Assembly (NCBI GenBank): GCA_030636965.1
Contig: DAOVVW010000004.1
Span: 1-12,732, forward strand
Reading direction: 5' to 3'
Source: Pseudomonadota bacterium
GTDB taxonomy: Bacteria; BMS3Abin14
DNA length: 12,732 nt
Part shown: piece by piece, positions 258 through 12,732 of the stretch
Layout: the number at the start of each line of letters is the position of its first letter
Numbering within the stretch: position 1 is the stretch's first letter
Made by a program: the position numbers and the translations under genes
Notes under the pieces: generated by a model
Told to the model about the DNA's origin: nothing
Database searches by the model: none
Seen by the model: only the letters and a program-made list of their open reading frames with translations

Positions 258-327
258 AAAGTTGTTAGTTGTTAGTGGTTGGTTGTTGGTTAATGACTAT
301 CAACTAAAAACTTGCAACTAACAACTG
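258..327. repeat. Palindromic 7-bp-period repeat between mlaE and mlaF
   Basis: From 261 the sequence reads as five tandem heptads: GTTGTTA, GTTGTTA, GTGGTTG, GTTGTTG, GTTAATG. From 296 it continues as heptads of the opposite strand: ACTATCA, ACTAAAA, ACTTGCA, ACTAACA. The two arms can pair imperfectly as a long hairpin. It lies inside the presumed mla transcript. The same word family recurs at the right edge of the window (12671-12732). Confidence 0.8.
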
Positions 328-359
328 GTACCAAACCTGGAAAGGTAAAACACCGAAAT

Positions 360-1160
360 ATGAGTGCCACTGAAAAAGTAAAAGTTGTCGAATTAATAAA
401 TGTAGACAAGGCTTTCGGGGACCAGATCGTCCTGGAACACGTTAACCTCCCCATTTATGAGGGAACCACCACCGTCATTGTTGGGCCGAGCGGGACTGGT
501 AAAAGTGTGACGCTCAAGCTGATGATGGGTCTGATGAGACCGGACAGCGGACAGGTAATAGCCTTTGGTCAGAACATCTCCAATATCAGCACCAAGGAGC
601 TGAGAAGTATAAGGATGAATTTCGGCGTCCTGTTCCAGAATGTCGCACTATTTGATTCCATGAATATTTTCGACAATATTGCCCTACCCCTCCGTGAGCG
701 AACCGACGCAACTGAAGAAGAGATACGCCGCAATGTCCAGGAGAAACTTGAGATGATGGGTCTGGCCGGATCCGATGATAAGTTTCCGGCACAGCTCTCC
801 GGAGGTATGTTGAAAAGGGCCGGACTGGCTCGGGCCCTCGTCCTGAATCCCAGGATCGTCTTTTTCGATGAACCAACGACCGGCCTGGATTCAAACAAAT
901 CCGCGGAGATTTACAGGCTGTTTCACCAGACCCAGAGAGAACTCAATTACTCCGCCGTGATAGTTAGCCACGATGTACCGAAGATCTTCAAACTCTCAGA
1001 CTATGTCGTCCTGCTTTCCGAGAAAAAACTTCACGGGTGTGTCTCACCCGAGGACTTCCAGCTGTCGGACAACCCGGCTATAAGACTTTATGTGGAAAAG
1101 AATATCGGACCGATCTATTCCAGCTTAAGAGAGGAGGCGGGTTTTTATGAAACGTTTTAA
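360..1160 (+). CDS. mlaF: MlaF, ATP-binding subunit of the Mla phospholipid ABC transporter
   Basis: This 266-residue ATPase powers phospholipid transport with MlaE at the inner membrane. Motifs in order: Walker A GPSGTGKS (residues 42-49), Q-loop glutamine at 93 in VLFQN, ABC signature LSGGM (146-150), Walker B IVFFDEP (from 166) with the catalytic Glu, D-loop GLD, and switch His 204 in IVSHD. The MGLMRPDSG stretch and the SGGMLKRAGLARAL signature are characteristic of the MlaF family. I chose ATG 360, preceded by GGAAAGG at 339-345 (somewhat distant). A longer frame from TTG 312 would start inside the repeat tract and is rejected. The last 14 bases overlap mlaD, which suggests coupled translation. 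Confidence 0.96.
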   Translation: MSATEKVKVVELINVDKAFGDQIVLEHVNLPIYEGTTTVIVGPSGTGKSVTLKLMMGLMRPDSGQVIAFGQNISNISTKELRSIRMNFGVLFQNVALFDSMNIFDNIALPLRERTDATEEEIRRNVQEKLEMMGLAGSDDKFPAQLSGGMLKRAGLARALVLNPRIVFFDEPTTGLDSNKSAEIYRLFHQTQRELNYSAVIVSHDVPKIFKLSDYVVLLSEKKLHGCVSPEDFQLSDNPAIRLYVEKNIGPIYSSLREEAGFYETF

Positions 1161-1593
1161 TATTGAAATCGCCGTAGGCATCTTCATGGTTGTAGGTTTT
1201 CTGTGTTTTACATGGATCTCGATCAAACTTGGAGATGTAAACCTTTTCGGGAAGGACACATATCCCCTGGAAGCACGCTTTAACTCAGTATCAGGGCTCA
1301 AGGAGGGAGCCACTATTGAGATAGCAGGTGTACGGATAGGCAAAGTATCCTCCATCAATCTGGACAGTGAGGATTACGAAGCCGTCTTGCAACTGGACAT
1401 CGACAAGGGAATAAGGCTCCAGGAAGACAGTATTGCCTCCATCAGAACCGCAGGTATTATCGGGGACAGGTTTGTGAACATCTCACCCGGAGGGCTTGAC
1501 GAATTCATCGAGCCCGGCGGTGAACTGGAGGAGACTGAATCAGCCATCAATCTTGAGGAATTGGTAAGCAAATATATATTTGAGGCTGAATAA
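1147..1593 (+). CDS. mlaD: MlaD, MCE-domain substrate-binding subunit of the Mla transporter
   Basis: The 148-residue protein has one N-terminal membrane anchor (about residues 8-26) and one MCE domain (about 38-115). The diagnostic stretch is EGATIEIAGVRIGKV near residue 54, followed by GIIGDRFVNISPGG. MlaD forms a hexameric ring on the MlaFE complex and passes lipid between MlaC and the inner membrane. It is shorter than the E. coli protein (about 183 residues), with little sequence after the MCE domain beyond the short segment LEELVSKYIF. The start ATG 1147 lies 9 bases after a strong GAGGAGG site (1131-1137) inside the end of mlaF. Confidence 0.95.
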   Translation: MKRFNIEIAVGIFMVVGFLCFTWISIKLGDVNLFGKDTYPLEARFNSVSGLKEGATIEIAGVRIGKVSSINLDSEDYEAVLQLDIDKGIRLQEDSIASIRTAGIIGDRFVNISPGGLDEFIEPGGELEETESAINLEELVSKYIFEAE

Positions 1594-1594
1594 A

Positions 1595-2398
1595 ATGCAT
1601 AAACATCGTTTTTTCACTGTGATCACTGGTATCTTTCTCGCTCTGGCCTTTGTACTGGTCGTTGTTCAGCCAACGCCGTTATGGGCCCAGGAGACTGACA
1701 CGACCGTGTCCGGAGATGCTGCCTCCCGGGAAAACAAAGATGATTTTGACGACGATTTCGATGACTTCGACGATGAAGACGAAGAATTCGTGACTATTTC
1801 TGATCCCCTCGAACCCATAAACAGAGGGTTCTTCTGGTTCAATGACAAACTGTACTTCTACCTGATAAAGCCTGTTACAAGGGTCTACAGAGTAGTCCCG
1901 GAGAAGGCCCGGGTCTCAGTGTCCAACTTTTTTTCTAATGTCTTCACTCCCATCAGGTTCGCGAACGCACTGGTACAGCTCAAGTTCAGGGATGCAGGGA
2001 CAGAACTGGGCAGGTTGCTTATAAACTCTACAATAGGCATAGGTGGACTTTTCGATCCGGCAAAAAATATTTACGGGATCAGGAAAAAAAGCGAGGATTT
2101 CGGTCAGACCCTCGGCCACTACGGAATCGGTCAGGGTTTCTATCTGGTCCTGCCCATTTTTGGGCCCTCCAGCCTTCGAGACGGACTCGGCGACGCGGTT
2201 GATGCCTACTATCTCAACCCAATATATACTCTTGACCTGAAAGACCGGGATAAATATACACTTTGGGCTCTTGACCAGATTAACGCCCTTTCTCTTGATA
2301 GGGATACCTACGAGGCCATCAAAAGAGAATCCCTCGACCCGTATGTCTTCGTCAGAGATGCCTATTCACAGAATCGCGCAGGCAAAGTCAGAAAGTAG
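1595..2398 (+). CDS. mlaA: MlaA/VacJ-family outer-membrane phospholipid transport protein
   Basis: This 267-residue protein belongs to the MlaA (VacJ) family, which removes misplaced phospholipid from the outer leaflet of the outer membrane and hands it to MlaC. The conserved core starts at DPLEPINR (70-77) and includes NFFSNVFTPIRFANA, GTELGRLLINSTIGIGGLFDPA and EDFGQTLGHYGIGQGFYLVLPIFGPS (each shown in part). A signal peptide is clear (cleavage probably after LWA, residue 31). It has no lipobox cysteine, so unlike E. coli MlaA it looks non-lipidated. Residues 49-64 are an Asp/Glu tract interrupted only by Phe. The gene follows mlaD by one base. ATG 1595 is preferred over TTG 1580, because it puts the signal peptide at the N-terminus and has GAGG 9 bases upstream. 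Confidence 0.95.
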   Translation: MHKHRFFTVITGIFLALAFVLVVVQPTPLWAQETDTTVSGDAASRENKDDFDDDFDDFDDEDEEFVTISDPLEPINRGFFWFNDKLYFYLIKPVTRVYRVVPEKARVSVSNFFSNVFTPIRFANALVQLKFRDAGTELGRLLINSTIGIGGLFDPAKNIYGIRKKSEDFGQTLGHYGIGQGFYLVLPIFGPSSLRDGLGDAVDAYYLNPIYTLDLKDRDKYTLWALDQINALSLDRDTYEAIKRESLDPYVFVRDAYSQNRAGKVRK

Positions 2399-2482
2399 TC
2401 TGAAATAACTTGACCCTTGCAGTCAGTATTGTTAAGTTTATCATTATGTGCCCAACTAACAAAGACTGAAGGGAAGGCAAAT

Positions 2483-3091
2483 ATGAAGAAAATTACCTCA
2501 ACCATTGTTGGTATCCTGTTAATACTGGGATTGAATGCACCGATCCATGCCGCAGCTCCTACTGATCAGCTAAAAAAATCCCTCGATGGGGTTATTGATG
2601 TACTCAGGGAGCAGGGTCTGGACAGGGAGGTCAGGCGAGAGAAAATCCGTGTCCTCTTCAGAGAGAGGTTCGATTTCAAGGTAATGTCCCGAAGAGTGCT
2701 CGCCAGGAACTGGAAGGAAGCCACACCCGACATACAGGACAGATTCGTAATTCTCTTTGCCGATCTTCTCGAGGCGACCTATATAGGCAGGATAGAGGAG
2801 TACTCCGATGAAAGGGTGGATTACATTAAGGAGCGAATAAAGGAAAAACGAGCTATTATTAATACTATGATTGTGACCAAGAGCGTTGAGATACCCATCA
2901 ATTACAAACTAACCCTAACCGGCGACAAGTGGCTCGTTTACGATGTGGTCATCGAAGAAGTCAGCCTGGTCAGGAGTTTCAGGAGCAGCTACTCTGAGAT
3001 AGTAAAAAAAGAAGGCTTTGAGGGGCTCCTTGCGAAAATGGAGGACAAGGCAGAAGAATTGAAGTCCACCGATGGAAAAAAGAAAAAGTGA
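2483..3091 (+). CDS. mlaC: MlaC, periplasmic phospholipid shuttle
   Basis: The 202-residue protein carries a signal peptide (cleavage probably after IHA, residue 23). The remainder matches the MlaC/Ttg2D family: an amphipathic helical N-terminal part, then RERFDFKVMSRRVLARNWKE (from about residue 60), QDRFVILFADLLEATYIGRI and a following beta-rich region (INYKLTLTGDKWLVYDVVIE) that ends in the family pattern VSLVRSFRSSYSEIVKKEG. MlaC ferries phospholipid between MlaA and MlaD. The chosen ATG is 5 bases after GGGAAGG (2471-2477) and places the signal peptide at the N-terminus; a longer open frame from 2417 adds an unlikely preface. An 84-base gap separates it from mlaA, but the operon direction is kept. 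The C-terminus is Lys-rich. Confidence 0.93.
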   Translation: MKKITSTIVGILLILGLNAPIHAAAPTDQLKKSLDGVIDVLREQGLDREVRREKIRVLFRERFDFKVMSRRVLARNWKEATPDIQDRFVILFADLLEATYIGRIEEYSDERVDYIKERIKEKRAIINTMIVTKSVEIPINYKLTLTGDKWLVYDVVIEEVSLVRSFRSSYSEIVKKEGFEGLLAKMEDKAEELKSTDGKKKK

Positions 3092-3095
3092 ACTT

Positions 3096-3584
3096 ATGAC
3101 AGAAAATCCGTGTTCCGTTGACAGCTGTGTATCCTTTCTATGTGAAAAATCTAAAAAGAAGGGCGCTTCCTTTGCTTTTCTGGGGAACCACGAACTGCTA
3201 AAGCTCTCCTCATATTTAGGTTGCAGGCATCTGGAAATCGGTGAAATTATCTGGGAGGAAGGAGACCCCTGCGACTTTATGGCCTTTGTCGTTTCGGGAC
3301 GTCTCAAGATCAAGAAAGAGACTGAATTTGAGGGCAAGCAGGCCGTTGTCGGAATTTACGGAAGTGGGGCGATCGCAGGGGAGCTTTGCCTCCTGGATGG
3401 AAGCCCAAGGGCTATTTCCGCCGAGGCGATGGACCCTGTGGACCTCCTTACTCTGGACCGAATGAACTTCGAAATGCTCATTGGCCGGGAACCCGACCTG
3501 GGTGCCAGGCTTCTGAAGGGGATGCTTCTTACTGTTTCAACGAGGCTGAAACAATCCTTTTCCCGTCTAACGACATTCTTCTGA
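3096..3584 (+). CDS. Single-domain cyclic-nucleotide-binding (CRP-like sensor) protein, no DNA-binding domain
   Basis: The 162-residue protein contains one cNMP-binding domain spanning about residues 27-140. The phosphate-binding cassette is visible as GELCLLDGSPRA, with Gly95-Glu96 and Arg105 at the positions that contact the ribose and phosphate in CRP/PKA domains, so ligand binding is plausible. No helix-turn-helix, kinase or channel domain follows; the C-terminus is a single helix. Four Cys lie in or just before the domain (residues 6, 11, 16 and 43). It starts 4 bases after the mlaC stop (an alternative ATG at 3072 would overlap mlaC), so it is probably cotranscribed with the Mla genes. 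Its role there is unknown; modulating envelope lipid transport is inference only. Confidence 0.85.
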   Translation: MTENPCSVDSCVSFLCEKSKKKGASFAFLGNHELLKLSSYLGCRHLEIGEIIWEEGDPCDFMAFVVSGRLKIKKETEFEGKQAVVGIYGSGAIAGELCLLDGSPRAISAEAMDPVDLLTLDRMNFEMLIGREPDLGARLLKGMLLTVSTRLKQSFSRLTTFF

Positions 3585-3620
3585 TCCAGCTGTTTTCACT
3601 CCACCCCATAAATATTTATC

Positions 3621-3629
3621 TGATACAAT
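3621..3629 (+). promoter_or_regulatory. Possible extended -10 promoter element for the NRDE gene
   Basis: TGATACAAT contains TG one base before TACAAT (5 of 6 to the sigma70 -10 box). No convincing -35 box is seen at 16-18 bases upstream. Transcription would start about 3 bases before ATG 3639, which fits the absence of a ribosome-binding site. This is a pattern match only. Confidence 0.3.
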
Positions 3630-3638
3630 GAAGTATCT

Positions 3639-4418: not shown

Positions 4419-4454
4419 TCTCAGAGCAATCCCGGTCACTGCTTTATGGGAAAC

Positions 4455-5156
4455 CTACCTTGACGGGCCAGAGAGAAGACCATCGATGAAAGCCCGTATC
4501 AATGCACTCTCCCCTTCTTCGATAGCACTGAATTCAACGCCCGCGCCCAGAGTCCCTTCCTCATCAATATAACCGACCCAACGTACTTTCGCCTGCGTAT
4601 TTATGGGTTCATCAGCACCGGGAAGCGTAAACTCCAGTTCCTGCTCCTCCCCAATCTCGGGGACTATGTCCATAGCTATGAATGCACCCGTCTGGGAAAG
4701 ATTGTGGATAAATGCTGATACATCAATGTCCTTGCCGCTGACATCGCACTGAAGCTTTGTGGGCACCCTTCTGAAATACCTCTTTCTGATCCCCAGATGC
4801 TCTTCAACGGTTGCAATAAGGACATTTTTGTTAATAGGTTTGTATATGAATCCGTCACATCCAGCCTCAATACACCTCTCCTTGCTCCCGAGTTTGCTGT
4901 CCATGGTAACTATGATGATCGGAATGTCCATCGTCTCGGGATCGCTCTTGAGTATGCGGCAGACTTCATCACCGTTGATATCCGGCATGAACATGTCCAG
5001 GAGAATCAGATCAGGTTTTGTTTTCCGAACGGACTCAAGGGCTTCGTTTCCTGATTTTGCTGTGCTAATGGAAAATGACTTCCTTTTCAGGATCGTTCTT
5101 TCCAGGTGAAGGAAGAGCTCAACATCATCGACGAGCAGGAGTTTCTTAACTTCCAA
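4455..5156 (-). CDS. Response regulator with receiver and PilZ (c-di-GMP-binding) domains
   Basis: The 233-residue protein joins an N-terminal receiver (about 4-122) to a C-terminal PilZ domain (about 124-225). The receiver has the acidic pair Asp10-Asp11, phospho-acceptor Asp54 in LILLDMFMP, Thr84 and Lys106 in YKP, so it looks active. The PilZ part shows both c-di-GMP motifs: RYFRR (the RxxxR motif, Arg126-Arg130) and NLSQTG (N-x-S-x-x-G, 152-157). It could integrate phosphorylation and c-di-GMP signals, typically for motility or surface functions. No partner kinase is in the window. The start is a TTG at 5156, chosen because GAGGAGG lies 6 bases before it; the longer frame from TTG 5174 would run through that site. 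Confidence 0.92.
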   Translation of the reverse strand: MEVKKLLLVDDVELFLHLERTILKRKSFSISTAKSGNEALESVRKTKPDLILLDMFMPDINGDEVCRILKSDPETMDIPIIIVTMDSKLGSKERCIEAGCDGFIYKPINKNVLIATVEEHLGIRKRYFRRVPTKLQCDVSGKDIDVSAFIHNLSQTGAFIAMDIVPEIGEEQELEFTLPGADEPINTQAKVRWVGYIDEEGTLGAGVEFSAIEEGESALIRAFIDGLLSGPSR

Positions 5157-5162
5157 TCCTAT

Positions 5163-5169: not shown

Positions 5170-5220
5170 AGCAAAGCCCTGAAAACAAAAGATCAGTGAA
5201 GCCCAACGAAATCGGTTGTC

Positions 5221-5250: not shown

Positions 5251-5259
5251 GATACAATT

Positions 5260-5283: not shown

Positions 5284-5284
5284 C

Positions 5285-5719: not shown

Positions 5720-5757
5720 ATGTCCCCCTTTACTATTTGGTAATGACAACTGAAAAG

Positions 5758-5915
5758 GTTGATGACTTCGCAAAAAGTCATCAACGCGCCCATTGGGGGG
5801 CGCCCAAATCAATAACTTGCACCGCAAGTTGTTGATTTGTGAGGAAAGTGAAAATGACACTTTTCGCTTTCCGCGGAGTAAAAAGCCAAGAATGGACTTT
5901 TTACGACCATATCAA
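5758..5915. repeat. MITE-like element of five tandem hairpins with imperfect terminal inverted repeats
   Basis: Five stems follow each other almost without spacers. (1) 5758-5768 with 5775-5785, 11 bp perfect. (2) GCGCCC 5786-5791 with GGGCGC 5798-5803. (3) 5806-5820 with 5824-5838, 15 bp with one G-T. (4) 5843-5854 with 5861-5872, 12 bp with one G-T. (5) 5878-5887 with 5894-5904, one bulge. The outermost 21 bases at each end (5759-5779 and 5895-5915) match as inverted repeats at 16 of 21 positions by my alignment. No ORF or transposase is inside. It begins 39 bases upstream of one gene start and ends 3 bases from the acylphosphatase stop. No clear target-site duplication was seen. Confidence 0.7.
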
Positions 5916-5918
5916 TAA

Positions 5919-6280: not shown

Positions 6281-6582
6281 ACCACAGAGGTCACAGAGAG
6301 CATAGAGGAAAACCTTGGCTTGGGTTTTAATCAAACTAACTAACAACTTCATAAGATCCAATCTCAAATCTCATTATCGGAATTTCTAATATTCTAAGTA
6401 AATCCCTCCTCCTGGATGGGGGAGGTTAGGAGGGGGTGGCAGCATATCACCCTCCCCTTAAGTCCCCTCCCATCAAGGGAGGGGTGAAAATAAATAATCC
6501 AGTGTCTAATGTACTAATTTCCAATGCTCTAATGATTTAACCCAACAATTTCTTTCTCTGTGCTCTCTGTGACCTCTGTGGT
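6281..6582. repeat. Nested inverted-repeat composite filling the acyP-PPC gap
   Basis: This describes most of the 390-base gene-free stretch 6207-6596. The outer arms, 6281-6302 and 6561-6582, are a perfect 22-base inverted repeat made of 9-bp-period CACAGAG words. At the centre sits a second inverted repeat: GC-rich arms of CCTCC/GGAGG words at 6404-6438 and 6448-6486, with a 9-base loop. Between outer and inner arms are AT-rich, roughly 7-bp-spaced words such as TCTAAT and CCAAT on both sides. No ORF, promoter or RNA gene is recognisable inside it. Confidence 0.75.
6404..6486. repeat. GC-rich imperfect palindrome
   Basis: Left arm 6404-6438 (CCCTCCTCCTGG at its start, AGGAGGGGGTG at its end) pairs with right arm 6448-6486 (CACCCTCCCC at its start, GGGAGGGGTG at its end) across the 9-base loop 6439-6447. 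Pairing is long but interrupted. The purine/pyrimidine strand bias and G-runs could also allow non-B or quadruplex-like structures. It lies at the centre of the larger nested composite. Confidence 0.7.
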
Positions 6583-6596
6583 TCAAGCCCAAAGCC

Positions 6597-7064
6597 TTAC
6601 TCTGTGTCCTCTGTGACTCTGTGGTGAACACCTTTAAAGATGGGTAGTTCCAACCCATTTTCATCCGGTATGCGCTTCACGTCAAGACCCGTCACCTCCA
6701 CCAGAAGGATTTCCAGGATGAGAAATGCTTCCGAGTTACCCCTGATACACCCAACTATTGCATCAGAACCCCTACCCGCCGCCGTGTGCATGTGGATCGA
6801 AGGACCAGATCCTCCCTCGAGTATTGAACCCATACCTACGAGCTCATGGGGCATATTGATCTTTGAAAAGACCGGTTTTGGGGGAAGCTTGTTCTCCTCA
6901 GGCCCCACAACGAGATCACCACTGCCCAAAGCTCCAAACATCTGGAACCACCCGGAGGTGATCTTCTCCTTCCTGCAGAAGTCAGTCAGAGTCTCCCTTA
7001 CATCTTCACCGTGATCGAGTTTTATGTAGTAGATCCTTCCGGGTTTTCCCTGTGTGTACTGCAT
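6597..7064 (-). CDS. PPC/DUF296 domain protein
   Basis: The 155-residue protein is a stand-alone PPC (plant and prokaryote conserved, DUF296) domain; in plants this domain is fused to AT-hooks, while the bacterial role is unclear. Seen: GRIYYIKLDHGEDV near the N-terminus, WFQMFGALGSGDLVV, PHELVGMGSI and PSIHMHTAAGR. His91 and His93 of the last motif, together with His73, suggest the metal site found in bacterial members. ATG 7064 is preceded by AAAGGGG. An earlier TTG at 7091 lies in a heptad repeat and is rejected. The last ten codons and the stop come from a CACAGAG-type repeat, so the C-terminal tail HHRVTEDTE is probably repeat-derived. Confidence 0.88.
   Translation of the reverse strand: MQYTQGKPGRIYYIKLDHGEDVRETLTDFCRKEKITSGWFQMFGALGSGDLVVGPEENKLPPKPVFSKINMPHELVGMGSILEGGSGPSIHMHTAAGRGSDAIVGCIRGNSEAFLILEILLVEVTGLDVKRIPDENGLELPIFKGVHHRVTEDTE
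6600..6626. repeat. CACAGAG-type repeat overlapping the 3' end of the PPC gene
   Basis: CTCTGTG occurs three times at 8-9 bp spacing in this stretch, the same word family as the composite arms at 6281-6302 and 6561-6582. Read on the minus strand it encodes the end of the PPC protein. Confidence 0.65.
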
Positions 7065-7085
7065 TTCGGCCCCTTTCGGGAATGT

Positions 7086-7182
7086 GTTCAACGTTTAACG
7101 TTCAATGTTCAATGTTTAAAGCGGGGAGCATTTATCTACATCTTCAATGTTAACATTGAACGTTGAACCTTGAACATTAAAC
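7086..7182. repeat. Palindromic 7-bp-period repeat between trmO and the PPC gene
   Basis: Left arm heptads from 7086: GTTCAAC, GTTTAAC, GTTCAAT, GTTCAAT, GTTTAAA. A 22-base unrelated centre (7121-7142) follows, then right-arm heptads from 7143: TTCAATG, TTAACAT, TGAACGT, TGAACCT, TGAACAT. The arms are reverse complements of the same word family. This occupies almost the whole gap upstream of the PPC gene. Confidence 0.85.
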
Positions 7183-7194: not shown

Positions 7195-7605
7195 CTAGTC
7201 ATCAAGCCGATGAATATGCGGTCTTATATCCAAAACTGGTGTTCCATCTATTGCATCCACTCCCTGGACGCGAAAACGCAACCCGTCCACCCCAAGGAGC
7301 TTTGCGGCATAAACAGTTAGCGGATTGGGCCGGACCGGACTTCGGGTCGCGAAAACCCCCGAGAGGGGCCTGTTCGGGTCGCGCTTCGGCCTCACCTTCA
7401 GAAGGTCCCTCCTGGCCTCGTGAAACCAGCAGATCACCTGCAGCATTTCCAGTTCCTCCATCCCCTCCACGGCATCAGCAAATTCAGGAAGTATATCAAC
7501 CACAACTTCTATGCCCTCTTCCCTGCCCTGCCTTGGAGCCCGCTCCCTTGTTTTCACTGATGAACGTATATAACCTATAGGAATCAGGTCGTAGGTTTCG
7601 GTCAT
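7195..7605 (-). CDS. trmO: TrmO (TsaA family) tRNA t6A37 N6-methyltransferase
   Basis: The 136-residue protein covers the whole TsaA/YaeB beta-barrel domain: IPIGYIRSSVKTR near the N-terminus, RQGREEGIEVVVDI, MLQVICWFHEARRDLLKVRP, GVFATRSPVRPNPLTVYAAKLL and VDAIDGTPVLDIRPHI, all family hallmarks. E. coli TrmO uses S-adenosylmethionine to convert t6A37 to m6t6A37 in a threonine tRNA, but has an extra C-terminal domain that is absent here. ATG 7605 overlaps the mtaB stop as ATGA, so translation is probably coupled. The open frame continues upstream to 7701 in the mtaB shadow, but the homology begins at the chosen start. Confidence 0.92.
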   Translation of the reverse strand: MTETYDLIPIGYIRSSVKTRERAPRQGREEGIEVVVDILPEFADAVEGMEELEMLQVICWFHEARRDLLKVRPKRDPNRPLSGVFATRSPVRPNPLTVYAAKLLGVDGLRFRVQGVDAIDGTPVLDIRPHIHRLDD

Positions 7606-8957
7606 CGGCCATGTTCTCCTGGAATGGGCTTCCCTGTATCTTTTGCACGATCGCCGGATAATATTTTCCCCGACAATATCTCTCCCACTCTTTTTTCGCA
7701 CTTCACTCTCACAAGATGCCCCGGTACAGTACCGTCCTCGTCAAGAACGACCCTAACATAGTTATCGGCAAGAGCCGGCATTCCCGAAGAGCTCACAGAA
7801 CCTGGTTCAGGGACAACTATCAGTTCCTCGCCCACCAGAGAATCCATGAAAGCAGCCAGGTTCCCCCGCCCACGTTTTCTCAATCGCGCAGCCCTTTCCT
7901 TTTTTACAGTGTGTGGAACATCGTCCTTCATGCTGGCAGCTTTTGTTCCGGGCCTGGATGAAAACGGAAATACGTGCAGAAAGGGTATCTCCATACTGGT
8001 TATGACCTCCTCGGTTTTGGCGAAATCCTCATCAGTCTCAGTCGGAAAACCGCAGATAACGTCACATCCAATGCCGATGCCCGGAACCACACTCCTGGCC
8101 CTGTTAACAGCATCGATAAAGTCCGCACATTTGTAGGGCCGGTCCATGAGCCCAAGGATCCTGTCGCTACCGCTCTGAAGGGGAATGTGGAGGTGCCTGC
8201 ATATTCTGCCGCCGGAGCCGGCAATAAGATCGAGCATAGCATCCGTTATTTCCAGAGGCTCCAGTGAGCTCAACCTGACCCTTCCGGAGATATTCTGCTT
8301 CAGAAAATCATTCAGAAGCACCTCCAGGGTCCCGGTGGGAGTGAGATCTTTTCCGAAAAGCCCCAGATGAATGCCTGTAAGCACTACTTCCTCCACTCCG
8401 TTTTCCAGATGATTTTTTATATTCTTCAAAACCTTTTCAGGCGCAAGGCTCCTGCTGGAGCCCCTGACGCTTGGAACGACACAGTAGCTGCAGGCAAAAT
8501 CACATCCATCCTGGATTTTCAGAAATCCCCTGTCCCTCCCCTCTATGGCAACAGCGGGCACATCTGGCCAATCCACCCAGTCCTCTCCGCTCAAGATGCC
8601 CAGAGTTGACACCAGCTTTCCCTTCTCCTCCATGTCCAGAACAAGGTCTATCTCAGCCATCTCGGAAAGGCTCCTGGACGCACCCTTGGACATGCATCCG
8701 GTTACAATAAGAAACGAATCAGGGTTTTCCCTCTTGATCCTGCGAATTTCCTTCCTGCACTGGGCTTCTGTGGGGCCAGTAACCATGCAGGTGTTGACGA
8801 TCACCATCCCGGCACCCTCAGGACCCGCTGAGACCATACCGCTATTGGCCAGTGCTGCGGCCATTGCTGCGGAATCGTACTGATTACTCTTACAGCCCAG
8901 GGTCACAAAAGCATAACTGTCCCGTGGGATAGCGTATTTCAAGTTCTGCCTGTTCAT
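7602..8957 (-). CDS. mtaB: MtaB, tRNA t6A37 methylthiotransferase (radical SAM)
   Basis: The 451-residue enzyme adds a methylthio group to t6A37 of tRNAs, giving ms2t6A. The N-terminal UPF0004 domain holds a [4Fe-4S] site at Cys22 (TLGCKSNQYDS), Cys57 (NTCMVT) and Cys88 (VTGCMSKG). The radical SAM motif is CDFACSYC (Cys152, Cys156, Cys159), followed by VPSVRG. A C-terminal TRAM-like part (about 385-440) is present. The LGCKxNQYDS form points to MtaB rather than MiaB (i6A) or RimO (ribosomal protein S12). The start ATG 8957 has no clear Shine-Dalgarno site. It overlaps trmO by 4 bases; both act on t6A37. Confidence 0.94.
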   Translation of the reverse strand: MNRQNLKYAIPRDSYAFVTLGCKSNQYDSAAMAAALANSGMVSAGPEGAGMVIVNTCMVTGPTEAQCRKEIRRIKRENPDSFLIVTGCMSKGASRSLSEMAEIDLVLDMEEKGKLVSTLGILSGEDWVDWPDVPAVAIEGRDRGFLKIQDGCDFACSYCVVPSVRGSSRSLAPEKVLKNIKNHLENGVEEVVLTGIHLGLFGKDLTPTGTLEVLLNDFLKQNISGRVRLSSLEPLEITDAMLDLIAGSGGRICRHLHIPLQSGSDRILGLMDRPYKCADFIDAVNRARSVVPGIGIGCDVICGFPTETDEDFAKTEEVITSMEIPFLHVFPFSSRPGTKAASMKDDVPHTVKKERAARLRKRGRGNLAAFMDSLVGEELIVVPEPGSVSSSGMPALADNYVRVVLDEDGTVPGHLVRVKCEKRVGEILSGKILSGDRAKDTGKPIPGEHGR

Positions 8958-8980
8958 GGGATTTACTTATATTGAATGGG

Positions 8981-9019
8981 GGTAAAAAGCAACAGCCTGA
9001 ACATTCGTTCAGGCTGTTG
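8981..9019 (-). terminator. Intrinsic terminator of the sigma/anti-sigma/Spy-like operon
   Basis: A perfect 13-bp stem, 8990-9002 with 9007-9019, closes a 4-base loop (core word CAGCCTGAAC). On the minus strand it is followed by CTTTTTACC. It lies downstream of the Spy-like gene and upstream of mtaB, so it should separate the two transcripts. Confidence 0.85.
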
Positions 9020-9126
9020 GTCCAAGGTCCAAAGTCCAACGTCCAACGTCGAAACTAAGACATTGGAACATATATGACCTTGTCTATGTGGTTAATCACG
9101 TTGGACATTGGTCGTTGGTCGTTGGA
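9019..9126. repeat. Palindromic 7-bp-period repeat (GTCCAA words)
   Basis: Left-arm heptads from 9019: GGTCCAA, GGTCCAA, AGTCCAA, CGTCCAA, CGTCGAA. Right-arm heptads from 9099: CGTTGGA, CATTGGT, CGTTGGT, CGTTGGA. The centre (about 9054-9098) is unrelated AT-rich sequence. It lies between the Spy-like stop and the terminator. Confidence 0.85.
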
Positions 9127-9135
9127 CAGAGTCTA

Positions 9136-9669
9136 TCATCTACCCCTAGCTCCCCCGGACGGACCACCATGCTCCATACCGCCCCTTCTGGATCTCATGA
9201 CTCTTTCCCTGATCTCCTTCTGGAACTTCACCTGAAAGAGTAGATACCGGGCCGTATCCTCGGGTGAAAGGATTTTCCTTACATCCTGCAGGTGTTCCTC
9301 TTCGCTCCTGAAAGTTCTACGGCGGTTTTTGACAAGCTCCTCAAGAGCGCTATCAATAACTTCAGGGGCCGGATTCGGTTTGTTCAATTCAGCGCTCACC
9401 ATCCTTATAATACGCCTGTTATCCGCCTCAATCTCCTGCCTCTGACGGTCCGATCGTCTCATAGCCGGGAAGAGTTTAGCAGTCTTATCTTCATCCAGAT
9501 CCAGTTCTTCTGTAAGGCGCCAGGCCCTCACGGCTTCAACCTTCTTTCTGACACGCCCGATATCCTCCTCCCCGGGAACTCTGCGGCCATCGTCAGCCAA
9601 AGCAGTCGTACCGGAGAAAACCAGGATCAAAGAGAGTATTAGAAAAACGGTTTTTCCTGTCTTCATCAT
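9136..9669 (-). CDS. Spy/CpxP-like periplasmic protein (putative envelope-stress or metal-responsive chaperone)
   Basis: The 177-residue protein has a clear signal peptide (cleavage probably after TALA, residue 25) and an almost fully alpha-helical, highly charged body. It contains LTEELDLDEDKTAKLFPAM (about 52-70), resembling the LTxxQ-type repeats of the Spy/CpxP/ZraP group, and a long amphipathic helix RRSDRQRQEIEADNRRIIRM. The tail is Gly/Arg-rich with two His and two Met (from about residue 158). I infer a periplasmic sensor or chaperone; exact family membership is less certain than the fold. It starts 14 bases after the anti-sigma stop with AAGGAAGGTGAG ahead of tandem ATG codons, and ends the operon. 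Confidence 0.75.
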   Translation of the reverse strand: MMKTGKTVFLILSLILVFSGTTALADDGRRVPGEEDIGRVRKKVEAVRAWRLTEELDLDEDKTAKLFPAMRRSDRQRQEIEADNRRIIRMVSAELNKPNPAPEVIDSALEELVKNRRRTFRSEEEHLQDVRKILSPEDTARYLLFQVKFQKEIRERVMRSRRGGMEHGGPSGGARGR

Positions 9670-9683
9670 CTCACCTTCCTTTA

Positions 9684-10289
9684 TCAGCTCCTCTGGGGAA
9701 TTGAGCCAAGTTCTTCCTCGAATAGCAATAGAGCATCCGCGTCCATATCCATATACTCGATACCCCCGAACAGAAATGCGCCGGTGATCTCCATGAGATC
9801 ATCTTCAGTCAGTTCTACTTCAAATTCCAGAGCATCGCTCACATCGGAGATTTTATAGTCGCTTTCCGTCAGGATATTCGTTTCGAAACCCATGGCTACC
9901 GATATCAGAGGTACATTGTCATCTGGCTTTTGAACCAGAACAGGTTCTGTCTTCGGAAGCAGGAACACAAGGAGGGCTGCCGCAGCAAGGGAAGCCGCAG
10001 CAAGACCGACCTTCCAGTTCAGTTCAATGGCCGGAAGCCTGAAACGTGCCCTGGAGACGGTTTTTTCCTCCCTGATGTCTCTTGTCACCTTACCGGGCAA
10101 TCCATCGAAGAACCCTGCCTTCGGCTCAGGTACTTCCAGGGCGGCAAGGCGGCTCAGAACCCTGTATTCCTCAGCACAGAAGCTGCAGGTCTCAAGGTGT
10201 TCTCTGAGTCGGCCTGCTTCTTCTCCCCTCAGATTGCCGGCAAGAAGGTCCGGCAGTTGCTGGGTAATATCAGTTCTATTACAGGTCAT
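9684..10289 (-). CDS. Membrane-anchored zinc-finger anti-sigma factor (ZAS family)
   Basis: The 201-residue protein has an N-terminal zinc-binding anti-sigma domain: Cys3 and the HxxxCxxC motif HLETCSFC (His31, Cys35, Cys38). One membrane helix (about 93-111) follows, then a roughly 90-residue acidic periplasmic domain (LTEDDLMEI, MDMDADALLLFEEEL). It probably holds the neighbouring ECF sigma factor at the membrane and releases it on a redox or envelope signal. Its ATG overlaps the sigma stop as TAATG, as expected for a pair made in fixed ratio. The periplasmic domain is not one I recognise. Confidence 0.88.
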   Translation of the reverse strand: MTCNRTDITQQLPDLLAGNLRGEEAGRLREHLETCSFCAEEYRVLSRLAALEVPEPKAGFFDGLPGKVTRDIREEKTVSRARFRLPAIELNWKVGLAAASLAAAALLVFLLPKTEPVLVQKPDDNVPLISVAMGFETNILTESDYKISDVSDALEFEVELTEDDLMEITGAFLFGGIEYMDMDADALLLFEEELGSIPQRS

Positions 10290-10828
10290 TACTCGTCACC
10301 CCTGATACTCTCTTTGAGCTTCTTTACGCCCTGATGGTAGCTTGCCTTTGCAGCGCCTACGGAACATCCCATTATCCCGGCTACCTCGTTGAAAGAATAT
10401 TCCTCATGAACCCTCAGGACCACTGCCTCACGCTGCCTTTCCGGGAGGGTTTGTACGGCCTCGGCCAACTTCTTTCTCTCCTCCTTCTGCACCATCATTG
10501 AAAATGTCTTTTCCTGGGCAGGTGGATCCAATCCGTCCAGCGTCTGATGTTTTCTTCTGCCTTCGTCTCGCACATGGTTGCGAAACGTGTTAAGGGCGAT
10601 CCTGAAAAGCCAGGTGCGAAAAAGAGAGTCACCCCTGAAGTTCCCGAGGGAGAAGTACGCTTTAACAAACGCCTTCTGAGTGATTTCGGCTGCATCATCG
10701 TGGTTTTCGCACAGCCTGTAGATGTAATTGTAAAGTTTTCTCTGATGCGCCCGAACAAGGTCCTCAAATGCCCCCTCATCACCCTTTTTGGCCCTTTTGG
10801 TGAGCTCACGCTCTTTCTCCCATTCCAT
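10289..10828 (-). CDS. ECF-type RNA polymerase sigma factor (RpoE-like)
   Basis: The 179-residue protein has sigma region 2 (about 20-87: FEDLVRAHQRKLYNYIYRLC, DAAEITQKAFVKAY, FRTWLFRIALN) and region 4 (about 120-174: LPERQREAVVLRVHEEYSFNEVA, then SVGAAKASYHQGVKKLKE), separated by a short linker with no region 3, the definition of the ECF group. It directs transcription of a stress regulon and is likely controlled by the adjacent anti-sigma factor. ATG 10828 is preceded by AGGAAG (10845-10840) at 11 bases. The ECF subgroup cannot be fixed by eye. Confidence 0.95.
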   Translation of the reverse strand: MEWEKERELTKRAKKGDEGAFEDLVRAHQRKLYNYIYRLCENHDDAAEITQKAFVKAYFSLGNFRGDSLFRTWLFRIALNTFRNHVRDEGRRKHQTLDGLDPPAQEKTFSMMVQKEERKKLAEAVQTLPERQREAVVLRVHEEYSFNEVAGIMGCSVGAAKASYHQGVKKLKESIRGDE

Positions 10829-10850
10829 AAGTTATTGTTCTTCCTGATAT

Positions 10851-10877
10851 TTAGACACCGCGTATAAAGAAAGGTTT
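10851..10877 (-). promoter_or_regulatory. Possible autoregulatory ECF promoter
   Basis: On the minus strand AAACC (10877-10873) and GTCTAA (10856-10851) are separated by 16 bases, resembling AAC / GTC-type boxes used by many ECF sigma factors. The start would lie near 10845, very close to the ribosome-binding site. The -35 part sits in the heptad repeat, so chance is possible. Confidence 0.35.
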
Positions 10878-10938
10878 AAAGTTTAAAGTTGAAAGTTGAA
10901 TGTTCAATACTAGAAACTAGAAACCAGAAACTAGAGAC
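10873..10938. repeat. 7-bp-period repeat tract between mnmA and the sigma gene
   Basis: Two different heptad families adjoin. From 10873: GGTTTAA, AGTTTAA, AGTTGAA, AGTTGAA, TGTTCAA. From 10909: ACTAGAA, ACTAGAA, ACCAGAA, ACTAGAG. Unlike the other tracts, the second half is not simply the complement of the first. Confidence 0.8.
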
Positions 10939-10943
10939 TTTTC

Positions 10944-12032
10944 CTAAACAATCCACCCACCCCCGATAACATAATCCCCGTCATACAGAACCGCCGCCTG
11001 ACCCGGTGCTACTCCGTGCTGCGGTTCATCGAAGACAACGTCTATTGCTGTATCATCTTTTACAGTTACGGTGGCCAACGCAGGATTGTGCCGGTGTCTT
11101 ATCTGTACAGCGGATGTGAACCGGGATGTGGGAGGAATTCCCTCGATCCAGTTGACACCTTCAGCCGCAAAACCGGGGGAGGCGGCCTCATCCCTGGTTC
11201 CCACGACTATAGTTTTGTTTTCAGGCTCAATTCTAACGATGTAGTAGGGTTCCTTGCCCGGTACGCCCAATCCTCGTCGCTGTCCCACCGTGTAGAAACA
11301 GACACCTTCATGGGTTCCCACATTGTTTCCGGATGTATCCAAGATGGGACCTGGCTCGATACTGCCATCTGAGGCGCTTCGTATAAAATCCCGCATCCCA
11401 CCTTCAGATATAAAACATATTTCCTGGCTGTCAGGCTTCTCGTGGACAGGGAGACCCAGTTCTGACGCCAAACCGCGCACCTCTTCCTTTTTAAGCTCTC
11501 CCAGAGGGAAGATAAGGTGCTTTAGAATCTCCTGATCTACTGGGAACAGAAAGTAGGACTGGTCCTTTGCAGGATCGTGCCCTCTTGCCAGGCGTCGCAT
11601 ACCATTCCCGGTTATACGAGCGTAGTGGCCTGTAGCAAGTAGATCCGCCCCCACGGCTCTGGCCTTTCTCATGAGATGCCTGAATTTGAGGTGTTCGTTG
11701 CACAGAATACAGGGATTCGGTGTTTTCCCCGCAAGATAAGTATCGGTAAAGGGCAACACGACCTCCTCCATGAACTGTTCCCGCAGATCCATACTGTAAT
11801 GCTTGATCCCCAGCTTTGCGCAGACGGCACGGGCATCTGCAAGATCCTGTGTACTGCAGCATCTGTTATCTGAACCCGCCACATCATCGGGCCACAGCAG
11901 CATGGTAACACCAACTACCCGGTAGCCCTGGCTCACCAGAAGCGCCGCTGCCGCCGAGGAATCAACTCCGCCGCTCATGGCGGTTATTACTAGTTTTTGT
12001 TTCTTACTCAATCTCTGCTCCAGTTTATCCAT
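10944..12032 (-). CDS. mnmA: MnmA, tRNA-specific 2-thiouridylase
   Basis: The 362-residue enzyme makes 2-thiouridine at U34 of Lys, Glu and Gln tRNAs, using ATP and sulfur delivered from a cysteine desulfurase. The N-terminal PP-loop is SGGVDSS (20-26). Catalytic cysteines align with E. coli Cys102 and Cys199: Cys111 in NPCILCNEHLKF and Cys206 in DSQEICFI. ATGHYA, KDQSYFL and VGQRRGLGVPG are further family signatures. An extra Cys108 replaces the usual Asp of NPDxxCN. Length is normal. No Shine-Dalgarno site is seen; instead a 5-bp hairpin CGGCC/GGCCG (12033-12049) abuts ATG 12032. The scaffold gene upstream ends in its own terminator. Confidence 0.97.
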   Translation of the reverse strand: MDKLEQRLSKKQKLVITAMSGGVDSSAAAALLVSQGYRVVGVTMLLWPDDVAGSDNRCCSTQDLADARAVCAKLGIKHYSMDLREQFMEEVVLPFTDTYLAGKTPNPCILCNEHLKFRHLMRKARAVGADLLATGHYARITGNGMRRLARGHDPAKDQSYFLFPVDQEILKHLIFPLGELKKEEVRGLASELGLPVHEKPDSQEICFISEGGMRDFIRSASDGSIEPGPILDTSGNNVGTHEGVCFYTVGQRRGLGVPGKEPYYIVRIEPENKTIVVGTRDEAASPGFAAEGVNWIEGIPPTSRFTSAVQIRHRHNPALATVTVKDDTAIDVVFDEPQHGVAPGQAAVLYDGDYVIGGGWIV

Positions 12033-12049
12033 CGGCCAAAGATAGGCCG
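12033..12049 (-). promoter_or_regulatory. Small hairpin directly before the mnmA start codon
   Basis: CGGCC (12033-12037) and GGCCG (12045-12049) can pair across a 7-base loop immediately next to the start codon, where a ribosome-binding site would be expected. It could lower or control translation; this is a structural observation only. Confidence 0.35.
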
Positions 12050-12065
12050 GAAGTGATTATGTACC

Positions 12066-12130
12066 CAGAATACAGAAGTCAGAATACAGAAGCCAGAATT
12101 CTGACCACTGACTCCTGAATTCTGAATTCT
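12066..12130. repeat. Regular palindromic 7-bp-period repeat (CAGAAT/CTGAAT words)
   Basis: Five heptads CAGAATA, CAGAAGT, CAGAATA, CAGAAGC, CAGAATT are followed directly, without spacer, by four heptads of the opposite strand: CTGACCA, CTGACTC, CTGAATT, CTGAATT. The switch point is the palindrome CAGAATTCTG at 12094-12103. Every unit is exactly 7 bases. It lies in the gap between the scaffold gene's terminator and mnmA. Confidence 0.88.
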
Positions 12131-12132
12131 AT

Positions 12133-12157
12133 CTTCGCCAATTCCCATATGGCGAAG
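12133..12157. other. Second hairpin beside the scaffold-gene terminator
   Basis: CTTCGCCA (12133-12140) pairs perfectly with TGGCGAAG (12150-12157) around a 9-base loop. It shares the A8/T8 run (12158-12165) with the adjoining terminator hairpin, so the two stems sit on either side of one homopolymer tract. Confidence 0.65.
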
Positions 12158-12185
12158 AAAAAAAAGACCGCCCTAAAGACGGTCT
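12158..12185 (-). terminator. Intrinsic terminator downstream of the NifU/IscU scaffold gene
   Basis: On the minus strand AGACCG (12185-12180) pairs with CGGTCT (12170-12165) around a 9-base loop and is followed by a run of eight T. It lies 40 bases after the stop codon of the scaffold gene, in the right orientation. Confidence 0.85.
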
Positions 12186-12225
12186 GCAATGATCATCTAC
12201 ATCTTGTTAGCACCGGAGCACATTA

Positions 12226-12597
12226 TTATCCACCATGTTTCTCCCTGTAATCTTTAATGGCCGAGTGAAGCGCGTCTGCTGCAAGATTCGAGCAGTGCAT
12301 CTTCAGGGGGGGCAGGCCATCGAGGGCCTCCGCAACAGCCTTGTTGGTAACCTTCTCCGCCTCAGCAATGGTCTTGCCCATGACCATCTCAGTGACCATG
12401 CTGCTGGTGGCGATGGCCGAGCCGCAGCCGAAGGTCTGGAATTTAATGTCCTCGATAACATCCTCCTTGACCTTGATGAAGATCTTCATAATGTCGCCGC
12501 ACTGTGGGTTCCCCTCTTCGCCGATGCCGTCGGCATCCTCTATTTCGCCTACATTGCGGGGGTTTCTGAAGTGCTCCATTACCTTGTCGCTATACAT
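12226..12597 (-). CDS. Iron-sulfur cluster assembly scaffold (IscU / NifU N-terminal type)
   Basis: The 123-residue protein is a complete single-domain scaffold that assembles [2Fe-2S]/[4Fe-4S] clusters from sulfur supplied by a cysteine desulfurase. The three ligand cysteines are Cys33 (GNPQCGD), Cys58 (TFGCGSAIATSS) and Cys102 (PLKMHCSNLA). Asp35 after the first Cys is conserved. YSDKVMEHFRNPRNVGE at the N-terminus is typical of this group. The NifU C-terminal domain is absent, so nifU versus iscU cannot be decided. The start follows AAAGGAG at about 10 bases. A desulfurase gene is often adjacent and may lie beyond the right edge. The products iron-sulfur clusters and relayed sulfur are needed by MtaB and MnmA nearby. 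Confidence 0.94.
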   Translation of the reverse strand: MYSDKVMEHFRNPRNVGEIEDADGIGEEGNPQCGDIMKIFIKVKEDVIEDIKFQTFGCGSAIATSSMVTEMVMGKTIAEAEKVTNKAVAEALDGLPPLKMHCSNLAADALHSAIKDYREKHGG

Positions 12598-12630
12598 CTC
12601 TTTTTAGCTCCTTTAACCTTTTCGCTATCG

Positions 12631-12661
12631 GTACAAAATCATGAAAGAATCTTTTTTGTAC
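12631..12661. promoter_or_regulatory. Inverted repeat upstream of the scaffold gene (possible operator)
   Basis: GTACAAAA (12631-12638) and TTTTGTAC (12654-12661) form perfect 8-bp arms spaced by 15 bases, ending 34 bases before ATG 12597. Centre-to-centre spacing is 23 bases, about two helical turns, which suits a dimeric regulator. It does not match an IscR site by eye. It could equally be an RNA hairpin. Confidence 0.45.
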
Positions 12662-12670
12662 TCCGGATGA

Positions 12671-12732
12671 AGTTGCAAGTTGTTTGTGGTTAGTTGTTAG
12701 TCCTTCACATCAAATATAACCAACAACTATCA
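12671..12732. repeat. 7-bp-period repeat running off the right edge
   Basis: Heptads from 12671: AGTTGCA, AGTTGTT, TGTGGTT, AGTTGTT, AGTCCTT. The opposite-strand words CCAACAA and CTATCA begin the returning arm at 12720. Same word family as the tract between mlaE and mlaF. The right end is cut by the window. Confidence 0.75.

Follow-up and report, generated by a model that had tools for sequence, protein, structure and literature searches.

How can the period of a repeat stay constant while its letters change from one locus to the next? The question is raised by six intergenic tracts in contig DAOVVW010000004.1 of a Pseudomonadota bacterium, a stretch of 12,732 nucleotides that is called the window here and comprises all the DNA shown. 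A preliminary description had these tracts stepping by exactly seven bases with a different word at each locus, most of them turning round into the opposite strand halfway. Their arms are collected in Table 1, where N marks a free base.

Table 1. Heptameric arms in the window, with neighbouring features and hairpin z scores of the tracts.
Position	Strand	Arm	Neighbouring features	Hairpin z
259..292	+	left arm GTTGTTN, 4 units	between mlaE end (stop 253-255) and mlaF (ATG 360)	
296..326	-	right arm, complement of GTTGTTN, facing the left arm		-8.2 (258-327)
7086..7120	+	left arm GTTCAAN, 5 units	touches longest-ORF start of PCC-domain gene (6597-7091, -)	
7155..7182	-	right arm GTTCAAN, 4 units	just past trmO stop (7195-7701, -)	-6.8
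9020..9054	+	left arm GTCCAAN, 5 units, fifth degenerate	upstream of mtaB-type gene (7602-8957, -)	
9100..9127	-	right arm GTCCAAN, 4 units	just past stop of gene 9136-9669 (-)	-4.4
10874..10908	+	arm GTTNAAN, 5 units		
10911..10938	-	arm GTTTCTN, 4 units, facing the GTTNAAN arm	just past mnmA stop (10944-12032, -)	
12066..12099	+	left arm CAGAATN/CAGAAGN	upstream of mnmA	-6.5
12096..12130	-	right arm, complement of CAGAATN		
12671..12732	.	GTTGTTN arm (12678-12701) and start of facing partner, cut by contig end		only -0.8

The seven-base step held for all six tracts. The best 21-base self-match at lag 7 was 18/21 at 258-327 and 7086-7182, 19/21 at 9019-9126 and 10873-10938, 17/21 at 12066-12130 and 15/21 at 12671-12732. 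When each tract was compared with 1000 dinucleotide shuffles scored at any lag from 3 to 14, no shuffle reached the lag-7 value of the first five, and the last, truncated by the contig end, gave p 0.007; the 12066-12130 tract scores higher still at lag 14 (19/21). Tandem Repeats Finder reported period 7 in both arms of 258-327, 7086-7182, 9019-9126 and 12066-12130, in both halves of 10869-10940 and in 12678-12701, and an Rfam search of the window at gathering cut-offs returned no match to known RNA families. The halfway turn applies to four tracts (258-327, 7086-7182, 9019-9126 and 12066-12130), which consist of facing arms with the same word, and fails at 10869-10940, which is not its own complement: GTTNAAN units are followed by the complement of GTTTCTN, two different words facing inward. 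By eye, several tracts (uncounted) adjoin terminator-like hairpins; so, as read by eye only, does the 9020..9054 arm.

The excess of lag-7 autocorrelation that the preliminary description expected over shuffled intergenic DNA is found genome-wide. The sample (278,712 bases, with 32,850 more read as N) comprised 60 of the 311 contigs of the window's genome, picked by number (C1-40 and C101-120) and including the window's own. It contained 89 lag-7 tracts, tracts under 28 bp not being reportable by the detector, and 82 of these were intergenic according to a crude gene caller; contigs split beforehand into intergenic and coding pieces gave 80 and 5. Whole contigs had 40 tracts at lag 14, 7 at lag 15, 5 at lag 21, 3 at lag 8, 2 at lag 9 and none at lags 3-6, 10-13, 16-20 and 22, so that each lag from 3 to 22 other than 7 and its harmonics had 0 to 7. 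Ten shuffles of the intergenic pieces yielded 0.0 tracts at every lag examined, and two shuffles of the coding pieces a mean of 0.5 at lags 3, 9 and 21. Tracts occur in 8 of 24 convergent, 32 of 93 tandem and 7 of 22 divergent gaps, with no marked bias. An assembly artefact is unlikely, as 9 of the phylum's 11 other genomes carry lag-7 tracts in the stretches sampled; G002 and G003 had none in 20-kb samples, yet tracts are present in pattern-fetched loci of both (L266, L267), and these two and G009 are single-contig assemblies. Across 14 named distant loci lag 7 barely stands out (7 tracts, against 5 at lag 6 and 3 at lag 12). Tract densities in the sister genome G001 and in G005 are not unbiased because their contigs were chosen by matches, in G001 to window-genome contigs or through presence in match lists, in G005 through the pattern matches lying in them.

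The constant period and the changing word were described correctly, the signal extends through the genome, and alignment does not unite the tracts in a single dispersed family, so that neither of the outcomes named beforehand as refuting was seen; the idea that words are locus-specific has to be given up. About a dozen words recur under one grammar in the window's genome, the main ones being GTTCAAN, GTTGTTN, GTTTCTN, GTTCCAN and GTCCAAN, and the families are shared among loci, each tabulated word accounting for 5 to 32 tracts in a fifth of the genome (similar words overlap). Changes within the units gather at one or two phases. A word-free test of phase concentration gave 49 against 21.8 (sd 3.7) in the window's genome, 41 against 15.6 in G001, 16 against 6.8 in G005 and 11 against 4.1 in G004, G006 and G008 together. 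Pairwise divergence among four-unit arms of the window's genome was 0.00 at phases 4-6 of GTTTCTN and of GTCCAAN and at phases 1, 2 and 6 of GTTGTTN, a conservation that is partly imposed because word tables and arm lists admit at most one mismatch per unit in the six fixed letters, a limit from which the word-free test is free. The free phase differed in 0.38-0.71 of comparisons (eight word-by-genome sets), and several words have two variable phases rather than one.

Unit number is also patterned. Among runs of at least three units, four was the commonest number in 7 of 10 word-by-genome sets from the window's genome and G001, the exceptions being a tie of three and four for GTTCAAN in the window's genome and three as the commonest number in its GTTCCAN and in GTTGTTN of G001. 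Runs of 2/3/4/5 units in the window's genome number 16/2/10/1 for GTTTCTN and 24/6/18/1 for GTTGTTN, both with a dip at three and a peak at four; GTTCCAN falls steadily (35, 8, 5, 1). There is no four-unit peak in G005 and G010, where units range from 3 to 12 and from 3 to 4 with three commonest. Statistically, both this peak and the facing pairs are demonstrated in the window's genus only.

Neighbouring arms at most 120 bp apart in the window's genome and G001 (n=52) comprised 36 inward, 11 direct and 5 outward cases, counts that carry some freedom because words were written G-first after the tracts had been seen and GTTCAAC and GTTGAAC are mutual complements. Inward, direct and outward cases numbered 20/5/1 for neighbours with the same word, the inward ones having arms 22 to 70 bp apart, and 16/6/4 for neighbours with different words. 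An inverted same-word partner within 200 bp was present for 32 of 88 tracts in the window's genome (8 with random words), for 14 of 59 in G001 (6) and for 3 of 22 in G004, G006 and G008 (0); the corresponding direct partners were 7 (5), 8 (2) and 0 (3). In G005, 6 of 29 tracts had an inverted partner where random words gave 5 of 29, and neighbours in G005 and G010 (2 inward, 4 direct) are too few to judge facing pairs.

Comparison with relatives revealed turnover. At 14 orthologous sites, with words assigned by eye, the same word was intact at 2 and a remnant at 2, another word was present at 5 plus 1 weak case, and no tract at 4; two sites were left out of this count (L029:2136-2241, where the window-genome arm is below the cut-off, and L224:13690, an 8-base array). 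At the 9020-9127 site, for instance, both arms read GTTCCAN in G001. Such word switching is weak evidence that sites are retained, because 46 of 106 gaps of at least 80 bp in the window's genome carry tracts anyway, and the 6 other-word sites (one weak) among the 10 that did not retain the word represent no clear excess. A tract common to G004 and G011, with flanks 97% identical, has its free bases unchanged. For pattern matches in relatives, a reversed-pattern control gave 4+4 control against 3+2 true matches in G001 and 107+38 against none in G075, and is no pure null because the pattern, once reversed, matches GTTCCAN-family words read on the complementary strand.

Several processes could be responsible. 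Stem-loops could have been selected for their structure in RNA or single-stranded DNA (at the ends of transcripts, for the stability of mRNA, or as recombination sites read by structure). This would fit the four of six window tracts that fold far better than shuffles (z scores in Table 1), the loops of 22 bases in all four same-word GTTCCAN facing pairs of the G001 sample, and the uncounted terminator-like hairpins beside tracts. However, the sole different-word pair folded (10869-10940) has a z of only -1.8 although different-word neighbours are mostly inward, and at least 108 of 180 arms lie outside all 36 inward pairs, a count that misses weak partners and those with unlisted words. A structure, moreover, requires complementary arms and not four like units per arm, and covariation at the free bases, sought in same-word facing pairs, was replaced by a deficit: the share of matching free bases was 0.29 (21 of 73) in the real pairs and 0.37 after permutation of the partners (P(low) 0.024). 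The deficit was larger (0.30 against 0.46) in a version that chose the best register; the first result is relied upon because the choice of register may inflate the difference. Structural selection seems to us an unlikely explanation. Since partners match less at free bases, neither arm is a recent copy of the other, which also weighs against polymerase slippage with a preferred seven-base step and template-switch correction between facing arms. Slippage is a hypothesis cited for bacterial heptamers in the sections of PMC4692102 used here, where their over-representation among bacterial simple repeats is traced in print to 2007. It would account for long arrays that, among the matches listed, repeat a single free base (all G in G011:C58:4-107 and G005:C52:25019-25101, all T in G010:C21:30636-30711), and for the free bases of 10911-10938, which by eye look shifted by one unit relative to G001. 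Yet long arrays are not all homogeneous (L101:2500-2585 has 12 units with mixed free bases), free phases are mixed within arms, and both the four-unit peak, in place of a fall-off, and the restriction of change to one or two phases with the rest fixed make this local process, proposed in the preliminary description, a poor fit; we give it a minor chance.

Copying of ordinary dispersed MITE or REP families, the heptamers being an accident of the founding sequence, would explain why words recur at many loci, why dozens of sites in G009 and G011 closely match an arm pair of G004 (L224:8451-8531) over about 30 bp, and why GTTTCTN in the window's genome shares free bases in a unit-position-specific manner (p 0.004). 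It leaves period 7 and the one or two variable phases in a dozen words unexplained, and same-word arms have no common free-base pattern, identical patterns being no commoner than after column shuffles (eight sets, p 0.10-1.0); we consider such copying quite improbable. A single dispersed family or MITE was rejected in view of the dozen or so words, the independent free bases of same-word arms and the failure of whole-length alignment; among the 20 same-word pairs, moreover, most loops look different by eye. Iterative templated synthesis, in which a hexamer is copied with one untemplated base, re-anneals seven back for about four rounds and snaps back into the facing arm, predicts that every step receives its free base at birth, that fixed phases are alike, and that partners match in word and not in free base. 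The unchanged free bases shared by G004 and G011 fit birth-setting without proving it, but several words have two variable phases, and there is no candidate enzyme: 10 of 12 phylum genomes, including the window's genome and G001 (both drafts) and G005 (100% complete), yielded no member of the reverse-transcriptase family PF00078, and synthesis by such an enzyme was rejected on this ground. The scheme as a whole appears very doubtful. The lack of a common free-base pattern, the lack of covariation and the orthologous turnover together speak against slippage, against a single mobile repeat and against selection on hairpins alone.

The reading we favour, though only tentatively, is that the tracts are evenly spaced arrays of subsites for an oligomeric nucleic-acid-binding factor, carried by fast-turnover REPIN-like elements. 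It builds on what is observed, namely the period, the phase-restricted variation, the recurrence of words and the turnover at orthologous gaps, with unit number and polarity added in the window's genus. On this reading the tracts are the arms of small elements that lie between genes throughout the genome. A typical arm spans 28-31 bp, or about four heptamers, each of which has conserved positions and a single nearly free base (two in some words); families differ in word and share the period and, within the genus, unit number and polarity. Each arm would be read by a putative oligomeric factor, protein or ribonucleoprotein, whose contacts leave one base per step free, and paired arms would be ends or operators of short-lived elements gained and lost in permissive intergenic gaps, probably mobile or selfish, and not regulators of particular genes. 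REP and REPIN elements are likewise short, dispersed, intergenic facing pairs, and are mobilised by RAYT; they are not known to have a 7-base period. Counts of the RAYT family PF01797 show no correlation with tract density across eight phylum genomes (0 in G001 and one fragment in the window's genome, both drafts), which makes mobilisation by RAYT less likely here. The analysis turned up no factor that binds the arms and no enzyme that would mobilise them, neither a target-site duplication nor a clean empty site was demonstrated, and the fact that same-word arms are not recognisable copies counts against mobility unless the free base drifts fast.

Cyanobacterial STRR sequences, tandem heptamers with more than one word, had been named as the closest analogue. 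Closer ones are published. In the sections of PMC4692102 cited here, which also mention three STRR heptanucleotides in Calothrix, the GGGAATC or GGGANTN heptamers of Xanthomonas and GGGGA(C/T)T of Nostoc have variable positions, a majority of four units, 89% and 93% intergenic location and 70 and 75 convergent two-site cases; length and sequence differ from one to the other of the two related species. These systems and the window's genome have in common intergenic seven-base units, four units and convergent pairs. They differ in that the study treats a single G-rich word for each genome, its four units being related to G-quadruplexes, whereas the window's genome has about a dozen words; the main ones contain no GGG, so quadruplexes cannot explain the common architecture and were rejected for them. 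Geobacter metallireducens, as described in the part of PMC2700814 cited here, has GGGACCG x4 at 49 locations and four classes of 'global regulator binding sites', mostly paired on opposite strands and proposed as regulator sites. Classes 1 and 2, with a unit length of 8 or 9, and the pentameric class 4 differ from the seven-base step. Class 3, in which MTYCTGA is repeated in tandem about five times and paired across opposite strands, has one form that, compared by description, is the complement of CAGAATN in the facing arms of 12066-12130. Marine Beggiatoaceae have intergenic heptamers too, but a single word for that genome: TAACTGA, mostly in intergenic direct repeats of two to six units just upstream of start codons (169 direct sets, one indirect), and mixed with other heptamers in Microcystis (PMC4679880, in the passages cited here). 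Runs of three GGGANTN, TAACTGA or GGGACCG were absent from all sequences fetched. That one word-blind bacterial machinery makes or maintains facing arrays of about four seven-base steps, each step with its free base, and has the single-word Xanthomonas, Nostoc, Geobacter and Beggiatoaceae heptamers as its outputs, is a speculative extension to which we assign a low probability; the letters would be replaceable because such machinery reads or writes the step and not the word.

The tracts belong to a known kind of repeat, and the many-word version is what is new here. The excess of heptamers in bacteria has no accepted explanation, and in the publications as cited here individual cases are explained word by word, through quadruplexes, translation control or regulator sites. 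A genome in which about a dozen words follow a common rule (period, unit number, facing pairs) makes the rule separable from the word, and suggests that conservation bears on the rhythm more than on the letters. The question thereby becomes testable, through the common features of hosts that bear the rule and through proteins that bind the arms whatever the word.

The window is an entire contig (C101) of a 1.51-Mb draft genome (311 contigs; completeness 78%), and its gene content is ordinary: mla lipid-transport genes, trmO, an mtaB-type methylthiotransferase, an ECF sigma factor, mnmA, and a nifU/iscU-type scaffold. The seven-base step that a preliminary description ascribed to six tracts is present in all of them. 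In five the lag-7 value lies above all 1000 shuffles with any lag of 3–14 scored, and the tract at 12671–12732, cut short by the contig end, gives p 0.007. The genome-wide lag-7 excess over a shuffled control, proposed there as a check, was likewise found: 60 of the 311 contigs (278,712 non-N bases) contained 89 lag-7 tracts, about 319 per Mb, 82 of which are intergenic by a crude gene caller. In the same contigs, lags 8, 9, and 15 gave three, two, and seven tracts, the harmonics 14 and 21 gave 40 and five, and lags 3–6, 10–13, 16–20, and 22 gave none; shuffled intergenic DNA gave 0.0 tracts at every lag examined. About a third of this genome's gaps of at least 20 bp bear a tract (47/139), with no marked preference for gap type (tandem 32/93, divergent 7/22, convergent 8/24).

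Unit tables made word by word for this genome and its nearest relative, G001, revealed that most word families have one nearly free phase (N) and several almost invariant ones, some words having a second variable phase. In the window's genome the free phase reads A12 C63 G17 T29 in GTTCAAN (n = 121 units) and 13, 11, 13, and 12 in GTTCCAN (n = 49 units). Independently of any word, departures from a tract's own consensus cluster in the same phase above chance in all four samples (observed/chance 49/21.8 in the window's genome, 41/15.6 in G001, 16/6.8 in G005, and 11/4.1 in pooled G004, G006, and G008). Tract length is 28–38 bp in 80 of the 89 tracts, 28 bp being the detector's minimum, and among runs of at least three units four is the commonest number in seven of ten word-by-genome sets (GTTGTTN, GTTTCTN, and GTCCAAN in the window's genome; GTTCAAN, GTCCAAN, GTTCCAN, and GTTTCTN in G001). 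The exceptions are GTTCAAN, tied in the window's genome, and GTTCCAN there and GTTGTTN in G001, with three commonest. Runs of two, three, four, and five units in the window's genome number 16, 2, 10, and 1 for GTTTCTN and 24, 6, 18, and 1 for GTTGTTN; the respective anagram words average 1.65 and 2.0 four-unit runs. By eye, small changes link the words into a chain (GTTCAA, GTCCAA, GACCAA, GACCCA; and GTTCAA, GTTCCA, GTTTCA, GTTTCT).

Adjacent arms (runs of units of one word) at most 120 bp apart in these two genomes (n = 52) face inward in 36 cases, with 11 direct and five outward. Both arms have the same word in 20 of the 36 inward pairs (11% by chance). Four window tracts fold far better than shuffles, and the other two do not. 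At the free base, the match within same-word facing pairs is lower, not higher, than in permuted partners (21/73, 0.29 vs. 0.37; P(low) 0.024). As different-word neighbours (n = 26) comprise 16 inward, six direct, and four outward pairs, inward facing is thus kept despite word differences, and complementarity is not maintained at the free bases. In the G001 sample, the four facing pairs in which both arms read GTTCCAN (loci L197, L198, and L209) have AT-rich, weakly similar loops, all of 22 bases.

Were same-word arms plain copies, their free bases would be expected to agree. Identical free-base patterns did not exceed column shuffles in eight word-by-genome sets (p 0.10 to 1.0), and the single sign of sharing was unit-position agreement in GTTTCTN of the window's genome (p 0.004). 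Copying does seem, from sequence matches, to occur in the genus of G004, G009, and G011: one G004 arm pair has dozens of ~30-bp matches in the other two, many at 91–97%. The dispersed ~160-bp element at window 5754–5917, with many full and partial copies in G001, G005, and G010, mostly at 75–95% identity, differs from the heptamer arms in being an ordinary MITE-like repeat.

The comparison of orthologous gaps, also suggested in the preliminary description, gave a mixed outcome at 14 sites, with lag-7 scores rechecked and words read by eye: the word was intact at two and a remnant at two, another word stood at six (one weak), and four had no tract.

Fate of heptamer words at orthologous sites (L, fetched loci; L224 lies in G004)
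Outcome	Site	Compared genome	Remark
Word intact	window 10869–10940	G001	
Word intact	L224:19195	G011	
Remnant below cut-off	window 259–326		
Remnant below cut-off	L068:9972		
Different word	window 7086–7182	G001	gap also lacks trmO
Different word	window 9017–9128	G001	both arms GTTCCAN
Different word	L068:6423–6582		
Different word	L224:8451–8531	G011	facing pair in G004, by eye
Different word	L224:3919–4006	G009	facing pair in G004, by eye
Different word, weaker	L224:19195	G009	16/21
No tract	L015:4328		
No tract	L029:4547		
No tract	L068:9861		
No tract	L067:11086	G001	15/21 run of another word

Where the words differ at a site, they may have arrived independently instead of being exchanged in place, since 46 of 106 gaps of at least 80 bp in the window's genome hold a tract anyway (1/33 for shorter gaps). 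The trmO gene (window 7195–7701) is absent from the orthologous gap of G001 (L198; G001 is 71% complete), where a GTTCCAN arm stands instead. At L224 10068, compared with L252 (G004/G011), G011 has a ~155-bp insertion that lacks a 7-base period.

The compared genomes of the phylum (n = 12) all fall within one family. Sampled densities per Mb were 319 in the window's genome, 226 in G001, 81 in G005, 50 in G010, 192 in G004, G006, and G008 pooled, and 181 in G009 and G011 pooled (three tracts only); G007 had one tract in 11 kb, and no tract turned up in the 20 kb sampled from each of G002 and G003. In six genomes from other families the density was 93 per Mb, based on six tracts (five from G012; five called coding by the crude caller), and in 14 named distant loci it was 25 per Mb (seven tracts, five in one Omnitrophota record), against five tracts at lag 6 in these loci. 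Four exact tandem units of the GTYCARN pattern were present in 11 of the 12 phylum genomes vs. 17 of 374 others; its reversed-pattern control is not a pure null, as it fits the complement of the GTTCCAN family. In G075, from another family, that control (RACYTGN ×4, itself a heptamer word) has 107 + 38 matches, probably another word family. In named genomes of other phyla, the Omnitrophota record L121 contains, by eye, a facing pair of GTTNAC-type arms (18865–18948), and L124 (Pontiella) contains a long TTTCACG array of ~13 units (4452–4555).

Among the matches listed, G005, G010, and G011 contain long arrays, some with one repeated free base; this suggests that slippage does operate in these genomes, with a signature of another kind. 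In G005 and G010, where few pairs were available, neither facing pairs nor the four-unit peak was reproduced. Iterative synthesis, slippage, selected hairpins, and plain copying are rival readings, each of which accounts for some of the evidence but not for the rest; no reverse transcriptase (PF00078) was found in 10 of the 12 phylum genomes, and the occurrence of RAYT (PF01797) does not follow the tracts.

Heptamer repeats have been described before. In two xanthomonads, GGGAATC-type tracts number 186 and 183; most consist of four units, 89% and 93% lie between genes, convergent pairs number 70 and 75, and unit positions 1–4 and 6 are conserved (PMC4692102); the over-representation of heptamers among bacterial repeats and the polymerase-slippage idea are both cited therein. 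Geobacter metallireducens has four tandem GGGACCG at 49 places, and its sites are mostly paired; one class has the heptamer MTYCTGA, which in one of its forms is complementary to the window's CAGAATN (PMC2700814). TAACTGA repeats, and a range of repeating heptamers in Microcystis, are also described (PMC4679880). Runs of three GGGAATC-type, GGGACCG, or TAACTGA units were not found in the sequences examined here. Window 6400–6625, a CCCCTCC-rich inverted stretch with a TCTGTG unit run (periods 8 and 9), visually resembles G. metallireducens site classes 4 and 2; 6406–6533 has a match in G001, and the periodicity of 6544–6625 as a whole is not above shuffles.

Our searches, confined to an open-licence library, turned up no account of a single genome in which many heptamer words obey one shared rule of unit number, free base, and facing pairs; what is new is therefore a rule without a fixed word, valid without G-tracts. 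Families of different letters have the period and phase-restricted variation in common, and in the window's genus also unit number and polarity. Such sharing suggests that the seven-base step itself is being read or written. The reading we tentatively favour, itself somewhat doubtful, is that the arms would be arrays of subsites read by a putative oligomeric factor and carried within short-lived elements.
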